Part shown: positions 6,665 to 10,375 of the stretch, one piece after another | Numbering within the stretch: the first letter of the stretch is position 1 | How the letters are laid out: each line of letters starts with the position of its first letter | NCBI GenBank assembly: GCA_027021085.1 | Contig: JALUVB010000266.1 | Span: 1-10,375, forward strand | Length of the DNA: 10,375 nucleotides | Direction: 5' to 3' | From: a bacterium | Lineage (GTDB): Bacteria > CAIJMQ01 > JAADFP01 | Program-made: the position numbers and the translations under genes | Notes under the pieces: generated by a model | The model's input: the letters and a program-made list of their open reading frames with translations, nothing else | What the model was told of the DNA's origin: nothing | Database searches by the model: none

Positions 6665-7105
6665 ATGAAATATTCCATGGTTGACGTTTCCGAGAAACCA
6701 GCATCTCTTAGGTGGGCTTCTGCCCAGGGAAAGATTATACTTTCCGGGGTAACAGTGGAGAAAATAAAAAAGAAGCAGTTGCGAAAGGGAGATGTGCTTT
6801 CGTTATCGGAATCCTCCGGCATCGTAGCGGCTAAATGGGTCCCCTATTTGATTCCCCTGGCGCATAAGGTAAAGATAGATAAGGTAGAGGTTAAGTTTTC
6901 CCTGGAAGAGGACGGAATTGTGGCCATCTCAGAGGTGAGGGGTAAGGACAGAACAGGGATGGAATTAGAGGCACTTTTGTCTGTAACTGTTGCCCTGCTT
7001 AATATTTACGATTTTTGTAAGGCAGAGGACGAAAGAGCAGAAATTACCGGTATAAAACTCCTGGAAAAAGGCAAGCAGGAATCGGAGAAAAGTAAGCAGG
7101 TATAG
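6665..7105 (+). CDS. moaC: MoaC-family cyclic pyranopterin monophosphate synthase, divergent
   Basis: The 146-residue protein has the MoaC layout: MVDVSEKP at 5-12, KGDVL (41-45), GIVAAK, LIPLAH (62-67), RTGMELEAL (96-104) and IYDFCKA (114-120). Aligned by eye with E. coli MoaC, the catalytic Lys51, His77, Glu112, Glu114, Asp128 and Lys131 correspond to Lys41, His67, Glu100, Glu102, Asp116 and Lys119, all kept. It therefore probably converts the MoaA product to cyclic pyranopterin monophosphate in molybdenum cofactor synthesis. Around the active site it is unusual: AAKWVPYLIPLAHKV replaces the near-universal AAK-R/K-T-x-x-LIPLCHPL, and the C-terminal GGKSG is missing. A strong Shine-Dalgarno GGGAGG (6654-6659) sits five bases before the ATG. 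It follows the nucleotidyltransferase by 42 bases. No other moa gene is in the window. Confidence 0.86.
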   Translation: MKYSMVDVSEKPASLRWASAQGKIILSGVTVEKIKKKQLRKGDVLSLSESSGIVAAKWVPYLIPLAHKVKIDKVEVKFSLEEDGIVAISEVRGKDRTGMELEALLSVTVALLNIYDFCKAEDERAEITGIKLLEKGKQESEKSKQV

Positions 7106-7680: not shown

Positions 7681-10056
7681 TTATCGGAAGGCTTGTGGTA
7701 CTGACTCCTGCCAGATACGCAGCAATTCATCCAGGGAAAGGTTAATGATATTTTTCCCTTCCAGAGATATTTGCAGACAGGGTTCGCTGGTTACTTTTCC
7801 TATTCTGAAGAAGTACGCGCCGTGTTCTTCCATTGTTTTCTCAAAAATCTCTTCCTGGTGGACTTCTACAATATAACCACTTGACTGGGAAAAGAGTAAT
7901 TTTTCTGAGGGAAGTGTATCTTCCACCCCTTTCAGGTCAATCTCTGCTCCCAGCTTATTTTTGTTTCTGCCATTTACCATCATCTCTGCCAGAGCTATTC
8001 CCAGGCCGCCCTCGGAAATATCGTGGCAGGCTTTTACTGTCCCCTTGTTGATGGCTTCAATGATGGCATAAAGATTATTCCTTTCTTCTTCCCATCTTAT
8101 CTTTGGAACATTGCTTCCCATTTCATTAAGGATAAGCCGATAGAATTCAGAGCCTCCCATTTCGTCGTAGCGTTTACCCACCAGGTAAATAGCATCTTCT
8201 GCTTCTTTTAAGTTTAAAGTGATTGCTTTGCTGTAATCATTTAGGATGCCTATGCAGCCAACAATAGGGGAGGGATCAATGGCTTTCCCGGCTGCTGATT
8301 CATTGTAGAAGCTTACGTTTCCTGTAACTATAGGAACGGGAGTCCCCGGGTGTTCCATGAGCCATAGGTTCTTTGCCGCTTCGGATACCCCTTTTACTCC
8401 TTCCACGAAGTCATGAAATGCTTCGGGTTTCTCCGGGTTGCCGAAGTTAAGGCAGTCGGTAAGGCACCAGGGTGTGGCACCTACGCAGGCCACGTTCCGC
8501 ATCGCTTCTGCTACTGCGTTTGCTCCGCCCCAGTAGGGATCTATTCTTCCGTAGAATGGGTTTCCATCCATGGAAAAGGCGATGCCCACTGGAGAGCCTA
8601 TCTCTTCCAGGGGAGCCATTACTCCTGCGTCTGCCTCGCCTGGCCGGATAACGGCTTTTCCCTGCACCTCTGTGTCATAGTAGCGAAAAACGTATGCACG
8701 GGAAGCAATATTCGGGGAGGAAAGCACCTTGAGGAAAACCTGGTTTAAGTTTTCTATTTTGTAGGCGGGTTCGGTGAAAAATCTTTGGGGAGGAGAGGAA
8801 GCACGTGCGTATTCTATCCCCTCTGTAATTTTTTCTATGGGAATATCGCAGACTATTTCTCCTTTATAATATACTACGTATTGTTTATCTTTTCTGGTTT
8901 TCCCTATTACCCGTGCTTGTGCCCCCTCGTAGATGTGGGGTAGTTCCCATATCTCGTTGTAAATTCTTAATACTTCCGGGGTAAATTCCCGGGGAACGGC
9001 AAGAACGTAACGTTCCTGTGTCTCAGAGCAAAGGATTACTTCGGGGAGCAATCCTTCCATGGCTACATGCACCTCATCCAGGTAGATATCCATTCCGATA
9101 TTGCCGGCAGCTCCCAGCTCGGAAGATGAACCGCAAATACCGGCAGCTCCCAGGTCTTTCATGCCTATGGCATACCCTCTCTTTTCAGCCTCTTTCCATA
9201 CCTGGTAGTTTGCCTTTTTCATGAGCAGAACATTTTTGAGAAATGGATCGTGTACCTGCACTGCCCCTTTTTTCTCCTCTTCTTTTTCCTCGTCAAGTAT
9301 TTCAGAGGCAAAGGCGGCTCCCCCAAATCCGGAGGCATCTGTTGGTTTACCTACCAGGATAATGTCGTAAGGTGTGGTTTTTGCTTCCTCTGGAACCTTG
9401 GAAGGCAGGATGTTCTTTTCCTTCACAATCCCCATGGCTACAACATTTACCAGGCAGTTGTCATCGAACGATGCGTTGAAGTATAGGTCCCCTCCGATAT
9501 TGGGAACTCCCAGGGCATTGGCATATTCCCATATTCCCTGTACCACTCCTCCGGCAATCCACTTGGTTCTTTCCCGGTACTTACCTTGCGGGTCCCCGAA
9601 TCTCAATCCGTCCGCCACTGCAATTACCTCGGCTCCCATGCAGTCAACATCTCTCACAATGCCTCCCACGCCTGTTGCAGCTCCTTCCACCGGGAGGACT
9701 TGGGAGGGATGGTTATGGGATTCATGCGCGATTACCAGCCCGTACCTTTCCCCCTGGTGAGTGGTTAAGTAAACGATGCCTGCATCTTCCCCGGGCCCCA
9801 TGATTACGTTAGGTGCTTTAGTGGGGAGGTATTCTTTGAGAATTTTTTTGCTGCTTTTGTAGGAACAATGTTCGCTCCATTCCACATTGAATATATGAAG
9901 CTCTACCAGAGAAGGATTTCTACCCAGGATATCAGCGATTTTCCCCACCTCCTGGGGGGTGAGATTGATTCCCTCTTTGTGCAGGCAAGGAGCCAATTCT
10001 TCTGCGGAAAGATTACCCACAGGAAGCACTCTCTTGGTAAAATTGGACATATGCAA
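7681..10056 (-). CDS. purL: Phosphoribosylformylglycinamidine synthase subunit II (small-type PurL)
   Basis: This catalyses the fourth step of purine synthesis, ATP-dependent conversion of FGAR to FGAM with ammonia delivered by PurQ. The small-type architecture of two PurM-like halves without a glutaminase implies separate PurS and PurQ genes elsewhere. Motifs are NVEWSEHCSYKSS (57-69), MGPGEDAG (86-93), HESHNHPSQ (111-119) with LPVEGAATGVGG, GMKDLGAAG, and in the second half TDCLNFGNPEKPEAF, GNVSFYNES and HDISEGGLG. At about 790 residues it is longer than Bacillus PurL (about 740); part of the excess is a charged insertion EEKEEEKK after FASEILD. The TTG at 10056 is 6 bases after AAGGAT; the ATG two codons later (10050) is equally plausible. 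It is 37 bases downstream of tRNA-Phe on the same strand. Confidence 0.97.
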   Translation of the reverse strand: MHMSNFTKRVLPVGNLSAEELAPCLHKEGINLTPQEVGKIADILGRNPSLVELHIFNVEWSEHCSYKSSKKILKEYLPTKAPNVIMGPGEDAGIVYLTTHQGERYGLVIAHESHNHPSQVLPVEGAATGVGGIVRDVDCMGAEVIAVADGLRFGDPQGKYRERTKWIAGGVVQGIWEYANALGVPNIGGDLYFNASFDDNCLVNVVAMGIVKEKNILPSKVPEEAKTTPYDIILVGKPTDASGFGGAAFASEILDEEKEEEKKGAVQVHDPFLKNVLLMKKANYQVWKEAEKRGYAIGMKDLGAAGICGSSSELGAAGNIGMDIYLDEVHVAMEGLLPEVILCSETQERYVLAVPREFTPEVLRIYNEIWELPHIYEGAQARVIGKTRKDKQYVVYYKGEIVCDIPIEKITEGIEYARASSPPQRFFTEPAYKIENLNQVFLKVLSSPNIASRAYVFRYYDTEVQGKAVIRPGEADAGVMAPLEEIGSPVGIAFSMDGNPFYGRIDPYWGGANAVAEAMRNVACVGATPWCLTDCLNFGNPEKPEAFHDFVEGVKGVSEAAKNLWLMEHPGTPVPIVTGNVSFYNESAAGKAIDPSPIVGCIGILNDYSKAITLNLKEAEDAIYLVGKRYDEMGGSEFYRLILNEMGSNVPKIRWEEERNNLYAIIEAINKGTVKACHDISEGGLGIALAEMMVNGRNKNKLGAEIDLKGVEDTLPSEKLLFSQSSGYIVEVHQEEIFEKTMEEHGAYFFRIGKVTSEPCLQISLEGKNIINLSLDELLRIWQESVPQAFR

Positions 10057-10093: not shown

Positions 10094-10169
10094 TGGTGGC
10101 GCGACCCCGAGTCGAACGGGGGACGCCGGGCTTTTCAGGCCCGCGCTCTACCACCTGAGCTATCGCGCC
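10094..10169 (-). tRNA. trnF(gaa): tRNA-Phe, anticodon GAA
   Basis: The 76-base reverse complement folds canonically. The acceptor GGCGCGA pairs with TCGCGCC, the D-arm contains AGCTCAGGTGGTAGAGC, and the anticodon stem CGGGC/GCCCG encloses CTGAAAA with GAA at positions 34-36. The T-arm contains GTTCGAC. The discriminator A is at 10097 and CCA is encoded (10094-10096). It lies between a perfect promoter and purL, so the tRNA and purL may share a transcript. Confidence 0.98.
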
Positions 10170-10208: not shown

Positions 10209-10255
10209 GCGAATGTGTAGGAATAGGAGATAGTGGTGAGTAGCGAGGGGGGCAT
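10209..10255. other. Spacer between the tRNA-Phe -35 box and the heptad arrays
   Basis: TAG triplets recur at 10218, 10224, 10231 and 10241, suggesting a decayed extension of the heptad pattern up to about ten bases from the -35 box. No ORF or RNA gene is supported. Confidence 0.4.
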
Positions 10256-10290
10256 TTTAGACTTTAGACCATAGACTTTAGACTGTAGAC
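10256..10290. repeat. Heptad tandem array A, five units (YNTAGAC)
   Basis: Five consecutive 7-bp units read TTTAGAC, TTTAGAC, CATAGAC, TTTAGAC and TGTAGAC. Positions 3-7 (TAGAC) are invariant and only the first two bases vary. Seven is not a multiple of three and there is no ORF, so the repeat acts at the DNA or RNA level, or is simply slippage-derived. It lies upstream of the tRNA-Phe promoter. Confidence 0.9.
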
Positions 10291-10294
10291 TGGA

Positions 10295-10343
10295 AGATAG
10301 TAAGCAGTAAATAGTAAACAGTGAACAGTAAATAGTAAATGGT
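10295..10343. repeat. Heptad tandem array B, seven units (AAAYAGT)
   Basis: Seven consecutive 7-bp units read AGATAGT, AAGCAGT, AAATAGT, AAACAGT, GAACAGT, AAATAGT and AAATGGT. The consensus is AAAYAGT. It follows array A after four bases, with the same period but a different unit and a shifted phase. Confidence 0.9.
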
Positions 10344-10350
10344 GGGGAAG

Positions 10351-10375
10351 TAGCGGGTAGCGGGTAGTTAGTAGT
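10351..10375. repeat. Heptad array C, at least two to three units (TAGCGGG), cut by the window end
   Basis: TAGCGGG occurs twice in tandem (10351-10364), followed by TAGTTAG and TAGT to the window edge. The heptamer AGTAGCG at 10349-10355 also occurs at 10239-10245, on the other side of arrays A and B. The array may continue beyond the window. Confidence 0.7.

Follow-up and report, generated by a model that had tools for sequence, protein, structure and literature searches.

The STRR sequences of heterocystous cyanobacteria are heptameric tandem repeats located in intergenic regions. In most bacterial genomes seven nucleotides is the commonest period among long-unit repeats, and slippage was proposed to make them, 7 nt being perhaps the footprint or contact length of the polymerase, as far as this survey is quoted in a later paper (Mrazek 2007, cited in PMC4679880). 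The GGGNATC heptamers of Xanthomonas and Nostoc are found within 50 bp of stop codons and on the coding strand, in a study that also mentions the STRR sequences briefly (Rehm 2015, PMC4692102), and the TAACTGA repeats of Beggiatoaceae stop all three frames in one orientation (MacGregor 2015, PMC4679880). Contiguous heptads are bound by the omega protein (ParB) of pSM19035, with one dimer per heptad and a need for four or more contiguous repeats (PMC9499535). The seven-base preference of bacterial tandem repeats has been noted previously, and a tested explanation is wanting.

The heptamer blocks of Table 1 are modules of one composite repeat and make up one copy of a genome-wide family, since the same order of blocks on the same strand is kept throughout the genome. 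The window, i.e. the whole stretch of DNA analysed, is the complete contig C266 of 10,375 bp, and the array reaches the contig end, hence the gene context on its far side is unseen. We counted 93 identities at a lag of seven nucleotides in 10218-10375, whereas 1000 dinucleotide shuffles had a mean of 43.8 (sd 5.7) and reached 60 at most; at lags 6 and 8 the count is no higher than chance, and TRF recovered the same three arrays with period 7. This confirms the strict 7-bp period that an earlier note, made from the sequence alone, had read in three adjacent arrays, and what it described as a fainter continuation towards the -35 region is a further, degenerate A-type block, with about 20 bp between it and the -35 box of the tRNA-Phe gene. 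The plus strand is the purine-rich one in this copy. By reading, the promoter is conserved in the orthologous locus of a congener (L150), where the homology stops just upstream of it; at positions 1-110 of that locus, the orthologous tRNA-Phe gene is preceded by a REP-like palindrome whose loop contains a second, nested palindrome.

Table 1. Features of the window copy and its neighbourhood
Feature	Position	Strand	Basis or remark
A-type block, GTAGYGR heptamers, degenerate (TAGTGGTGAGTAGCGAGG / TAGTGGTGAGTAGCGAGGGGGG)	about 10228-10252	+	read from sequence
B block, five NNTAGAC heptamers: TTTAGAC TTTAGAC CATAGAC TTTAGAC TGTAGAC	10256-10290	+	sequence, TRF
7-nt linker TGGAAGA, variant of the usual post-B TGGGA(GA)	10291-10297	+	
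C block, six to seven AGTRARY heptamers (AAAYAGT of the earlier note)	10298 to about 10342	+	sequence, TRF
Second A-type block (A2), GTAGCGG GTAGCGG GTAGTTA GTAGT, cut by contig end	10350-10375	+	
Sigma-70-type promoter of tRNA-Phe, spacer 17	TTGACA 10208-10203, TATAAT 10185-10180	-	by reading
tRNA-Phe (GAA)	10094-10169	-	confirmed; context, outside the element
791-aa ORF, next minus-strand gene	7681-10056	-	taken as purL, following the earlier note

Seven is the only favoured period in the host genome. This draft genome (G000) is a MAG of 1.93 Mb in 307 contigs, 94% complete; its PurL-like protein is 93% identical to a protein from a Caldisericota-labelled MAG (M_MaxBin.041) and shares 74% identity with one carrying the label Candidatus Calescamantes, and judged from the identity of this one protein the genome probably sits near the candidate phylum Calescamantes. 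A genome search with the window's array found 99 places. The NNTAGAC-word pattern TTTAGACNNTAGACNNTAGAC, with up to two mismatches, has 231 + 238 = 469 matches on the two strands of the genome, compared with 0 for the same pattern read backwards as a control. We found 107 lag-7 arrays, and 0-4 arrays for each of the other periods that are not multiples of seven, in 768 kb of contigs that were partly picked for bearing arrays and partly taken in number order. There 97% of the array bases are intergenic as compared with 13% of the sequence, and a 1.0-Mb sample gave 165 lag-7 arrays with 98% of their bases intergenic. The earlier note had argued that words of different sequence share a fixed length of seven, which the lack of other favoured periods supports, and had suggested a scan for further arrays in the genome and its relatives and a check for an intergenic preference; the genome has many such arrays, they lie between genes, and the congener has them too.

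Several simple origins do not account for the family. Local slippage of one seed, which the earlier note had already doubted, is rejected by the hundreds of dispersed copies with fixed order. Slippage through loss of mismatch repair was considered, as MutS_I (PF01624) has no match in G000 and is found in all six class relatives searched, but the congener carries MutS_I together with the same arrays. Repeats made by a reverse transcriptase (DGR, retron or telomerase-like) are rejected by the absence of PF00078 matches in seven class genomes, control genomes having such matches. An assembly artefact or contaminant could be suspected from the position of the window array at a contig end, modules being found at 39 of 190 sampled contig ends. 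However, arrays in mid-contig with unique flanks occur in two different MAGs, which refutes an artefact for the family and makes it extremely improbable here. We suggest that arrays of such kind may break assemblies of uncultured genomes.

The composite repeat is built from four recurrent heptamer words, i.e. A (GTAGYGR), B (NNTAGAC), C (AGTRARY) and G (AACTNRC). A copy keeps order and orientation as GTAGYGR, five NNTAGAC, TGGGA and AGTRARY. C follows B on the same strand in 70 of 121 cases (58%), compared with 4.7% expected at random intergenic places, and A precedes B on the same strand in 39 of 121 (32%), compared with 3.7% of random intergenic 70-mers; most B arrays are followed by a linker TGGGA, TGGGG or TGGAA. 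The modal size of the B array is five units (57 of 78 or 78 of 121, depending on the definition used). Each of the five unit positions has its own spacer preferences, and 61 of the 78 five-unit arrays are distinct. In the next unit, when left unconstrained, positions 1-3 vary and positions 4-7 (AGAC) are 90-94% one base; the T of TAG is missing in about 30% of the B units, which keep AGAC. REP-like palindromes of the CCTGCTTTCGCAGG type and other short modules are interspersed among the heptamer blocks. Fold z-scores of -1.3, -2.0, +1.7 and 0.1 do not give a clear RNA hairpin, and runs of at least three G are absent from the B and C units.

The modules spread by copying and shuffling and turn over fast, as shown by their fixed order, the mostly five units, and gains and losses between congeners. 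The congener (G001, same genus, 86% complete) has 160 + 128 matches to the NNTAGAC word. The regions between 93 syntenic gene pairs bear arrays in 12 cases in the host genome and in 11 in the congener, 9 being common to both (Fisher 1e-8), and the array-bearing intergenic DNA of these pairs is mostly unalignable. At 175 comparable orthologous gene ends, B arrays are found in both genomes at 5, only in the host at 7 and only in the congener at 4; this comparison, like that of unit numbers, is at the species level and covers few shared arrays. The window gene at 6665-7105 has no array, and its reciprocal best match in the congener (L197, near 6543) ends at a B array that gives it its TAG stop. 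A genome of the same family (64% complete) has 0 word matches and 0 lag-7 arrays in 99 kb. Three genomes of another family within the class (G003, G004, G006) have few matches of the NNTAGAC word, yet 7-bp arrays of other words, their array densities being biased since the stretches were picked for holding matches; 26 loci of other phyla gave two lag-7 arrays in 396 kb. Loci L191, L189 and L146 of the congener also hold runs of CCCTAAA/AAACTC-like, i.e. plant-telomere-like, heptamers and CTCTGTGC octamers.

Such dispersal could also come from a selfish, non-autonomous MITE- or REP-like element, in which a transposase preferring gene ends inserts A-B-C plus palindromes and the heptamers are the body. 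The dispersed copies of fixed order would fit, as would the modules adjoining REP-like palindromes, the insertion-like differences at two orthologous sites (C32 vs L183 and C162 vs L189) and two Y1 transposase (RAYT-like; PF01797) genes in G000. But the array-rich congener, at 86% completeness, has no PF01797 match, the blocks are found in many combinations, and we saw no defined ends, terminal inverted repeats or target duplication at the compared sites, whose flanks align poorly. Moreover, other words in other families and in phages obey the gene-end rule given below without the composite. We hold this explanation to be unlikely.

The arrays are associated with gene 3' ends in sense orientation, a point that the earlier note missed together with the dispersed modules of the composite repeat. 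Using genes called by a home-made predictor, we counted the modules lying no more than 120 bp from the 3' end of a gene as sense:antisense = 119:11 in the host genome and 43:0 in the congener, 162:11 in total, a ratio whose p-value is too small because neighbouring modules of one composite are not independent; counts per intergenic region (27:5, 34:12 and 27:11) agree with the sense bias. Beyond 120 bp the bias vanishes or reverses, and there is no orientation bias at 5' ends within 200 bp. The window copy is no example of this rule, because its sole visible neighbour is the minus-strand tRNA-Phe gene, about 60 bp off with the 5' end towards the array. In general, a link to tRNA genes, for which the earlier note had suggested a check, is not supported by our counts, with 2 of 29 tRNA genes within 250 bp of an NNTAGAC array compared with 127 of 886 protein genes. 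A link to promoters, one of the possibilities it had raised, is not supported either, since modules avoid the last 50 bp before start codons and, close to 5' ends, have no preferred orientation. The interpretation given there thus stands for the fixed period, the further arrays, their intergenic location, their presence in the congener and the precedents in other bacteria, and is not supported for tRNA genes and promoters.

The start of a module commonly coincides with the stop codon or follows it by no more than 30 nt, and some genes have their stop supplied by the array. TAG is the stop of 20 of 38 (53%) and 15 of 20 (75%) array-flanked genes in the two genomes, compared with 19% and 18% of the others. 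Where B arrays are close together, they point towards each other in 11 cases and apart in 1, as expected if each convergent gene carries its own array. Two further explanations were tried. Orientation by the replication strand fits poorly, as an array takes the direction of its neighbouring gene even where that gene runs opposite to most genes of the contig (10:2, 10:2 and 9:1), draft contigs making this count not decisive. Arrays being copies of the gene's own stop does not fit either, as genes with TAA or TGA stops show no clear 7-nt phase; TAG stops show an about two-fold excess in 7-nt phase, partly since the stop lies inside the array.

The sense strand of the arrays carries 3.0-4.2 stops per 21 nt, as compared with 0-1.8 on the antisense strand and 0.75 in intergenic DNA. 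An alternative hypothesis could be that the arrays are all-frame stop cassettes under selection, in which a stop-carrying heptamer (7 = 1 mod 3) halts stray ribosomes in every frame, as noted for the three frames of the TAACTGA repeats (MacGregor, PMC4679880). At gene ends in virus contigs from many sources, ORFs of at least 100 codons being used as genes, the stop-bearing strand is indeed sense for three words, with sense:antisense = 29:5 for AGTRARY, 29:8 for the reversed word and 21:6 for CTGYCYR, and a stop-free word gave 2:3. The octamer analogue AGTRARYN shows no bias (9:9), which indicates that stop codons alone do not explain the orientation. We chose the word YYTGACY, which has its stop on the pyrimidine-rich strand, to part the stop effect from a purine effect. 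Among the matches listed, the purine strand is sense in 27:8 if the gene has already reached a stop codon of its own ahead of the array, and the stop strand is sense in 20:9 if the ORF continues into it. Arrays of RGGARNC, a word without stops in sense, are likewise oriented in sense (8:1 among the matches listed), and five words pooled over own-stop genes of virus contigs have the purine-rich strand in sense in 93:45 (p 5e-5), again among the matches listed. These correlations show two separable orientation effects, one of the stop strand and one of the purine strand. Stop cassettes would not predict the purine strand prevailing over the stop strand in own-stop genes, the sense bias of a stop-free word, or B units that lose the T of TAG and keep AGAC; a trivial filter makes up much of the stop effect, and a survey is reported to see no evidence in eubacteria of selected fail-safe extra stops (PMC6764699). 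Selection for stop cassettes is hence very unlikely.

C-type arrays also lie behind genes in sense at single loci of unrelated genomes, i.e. L252/L263 (one locus), L254, L257, L260 and L264, and in antisense at L253. At L257 (G362:C9, about 1475-1640) both convergent genes are followed by a sense C-type array, and this inverted pair of heptamer arrays could form a long hairpin. Matches to the word were found in 12 of about 380 distant genomes; of two scrambled controls, one matched 2 genomes and the other 4 (Fisher 0.012 for the first control, 0.004 for the two together), which is suggestive only of a word shared across distant phyla. The abundance of the reversed word in virus contigs (69 vs 93 stretches) does not single out the C word. 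The scrambled control queries, too, led to unrelated genomes with heptamer arrays built from other words (L287-L292).

We propose, at about even chances, that these are arrays at transcript 3' ends which arise by 7-nt tandem duplication, spread as modules and have their orientation set by transcription. An array would be born by tandem duplication of 7 nt, a step that the agreement of the period preference with published surveys fits. Finished blocks would then be copied and shuffled as modules between intergenic sites with fast turnover, and near genes they would persist mainly just behind stop codons and in transcript sense. For an ORF that continues into the array, the sense strand has to be the one bearing stops, because a stop-carrying heptamer closes all three frames within three units. 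Where a gene has its own stop, the purine-rich strand is preferred in the RNA, possibly through transcription-coupled mutation or through selection against C-rich RNA that loads Rho.

A dedicated function of the arrays is not required by our proposal, but the unchanged AGAC core hints at one. In three arrays that we aligned by eye and judged to be shared by the two congeners (C2/L183, C95/L178 and C79/L191), changes are found at 11 of 24 spacer positions, 1 of 12 third positions and 0 of 48 core positions; unlike a purely neutral array, this looks like selection on sequence, with n = three and a bias towards an unchanged core, since the arrays were found by that core. Sequence-specific reading of the AGAC core is a serious rival: an oligomerising factor that binds DNA or RNA would occupy each heptamer as one site and read the 4-nt core at transcript 3' ends for termination, end protection or insulation, with seven set by the protein footprint, as for omega dimers on WATCACW. 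A core that is fixed next to a free spacer, both across units genome-wide and between species, argues for such a reader, as do the mostly five units and the sense orientation at 3' ends, and pSM19035 ParB shows that a reader of contiguous 7-bp units exists (PMC9499535). The fast gain and loss of arrays and the selection of the three arrays by their core argue against it. At least four words in a genome would need several readers, and for the one family searched, RHH_1 (PF01402), G000 has no match, though relatives do. We consider such recognition possible, though unlikely. We may speculate, with considerable doubt, that heptad arrays are a widespread and unnamed class of transcript-3'-end elements in bacteria and phages, which differ in word, share one period and lie in sense after stop codons, and whose fixed core is read every 7 nt by a dedicated DNA- or RNA-binding factor. 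Multi-word arrays tied to 3' ends and the transcript strand, together with the phage rule, turn the heptamer preference into a testable question on transcription, stops and repeat birth.

By its period excess and intergenic location the array family belongs to the general class of heptanucleotide intergenic tandem repeats. The long repeats of Mrazek, as far as quoted, are near-exact copies of one word, whereas those studied here are degenerate at fixed positions, use several words in fixed order and are dispersed. The words of the STRR sequences appear to differ from ours, and as far as we found neither a composite order nor a gene-end rule is described for them; our units also differ from the GGGGAYT word of Nostoc (PMC4692102). 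The omega heptads resemble our arrays in that several 7-bp units, each with a fixed core, directly adjoin one another, but they are plasmid centromere and promoter sites of the sequence WATCACW with a known RHH reader, for which our PF01402 search found none in G000. REP/RAYT (TnpAREP) systems resemble the family in the REP-like palindromes found among the heptamer blocks, but the blocks are non-palindromic and also occur without such palindromes. TAACTGA repeats share the intergenic direct heptamers with stops in all frames one way, and differ in that a single word is repeated exactly and most of them are directed towards a start codon downstream. The GGGNATC repeats are likewise intergenic, genome-wide and strictly heptameric and lie behind stops on the coding strand; however, they repeat one G-rich word, preferably in four units, a number linked to G-quadruplexes, whereas the B and C words lack G-runs. 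Among the open-licence papers we found none that describes a composite heptamer family of several degenerate words, nor one that makes a purine/stop test. The family is a composite, multi-word variant of the known heptamers, and what is new is the sense bias at 3' ends, the unchanged core and the test that separates purine from stop effects.
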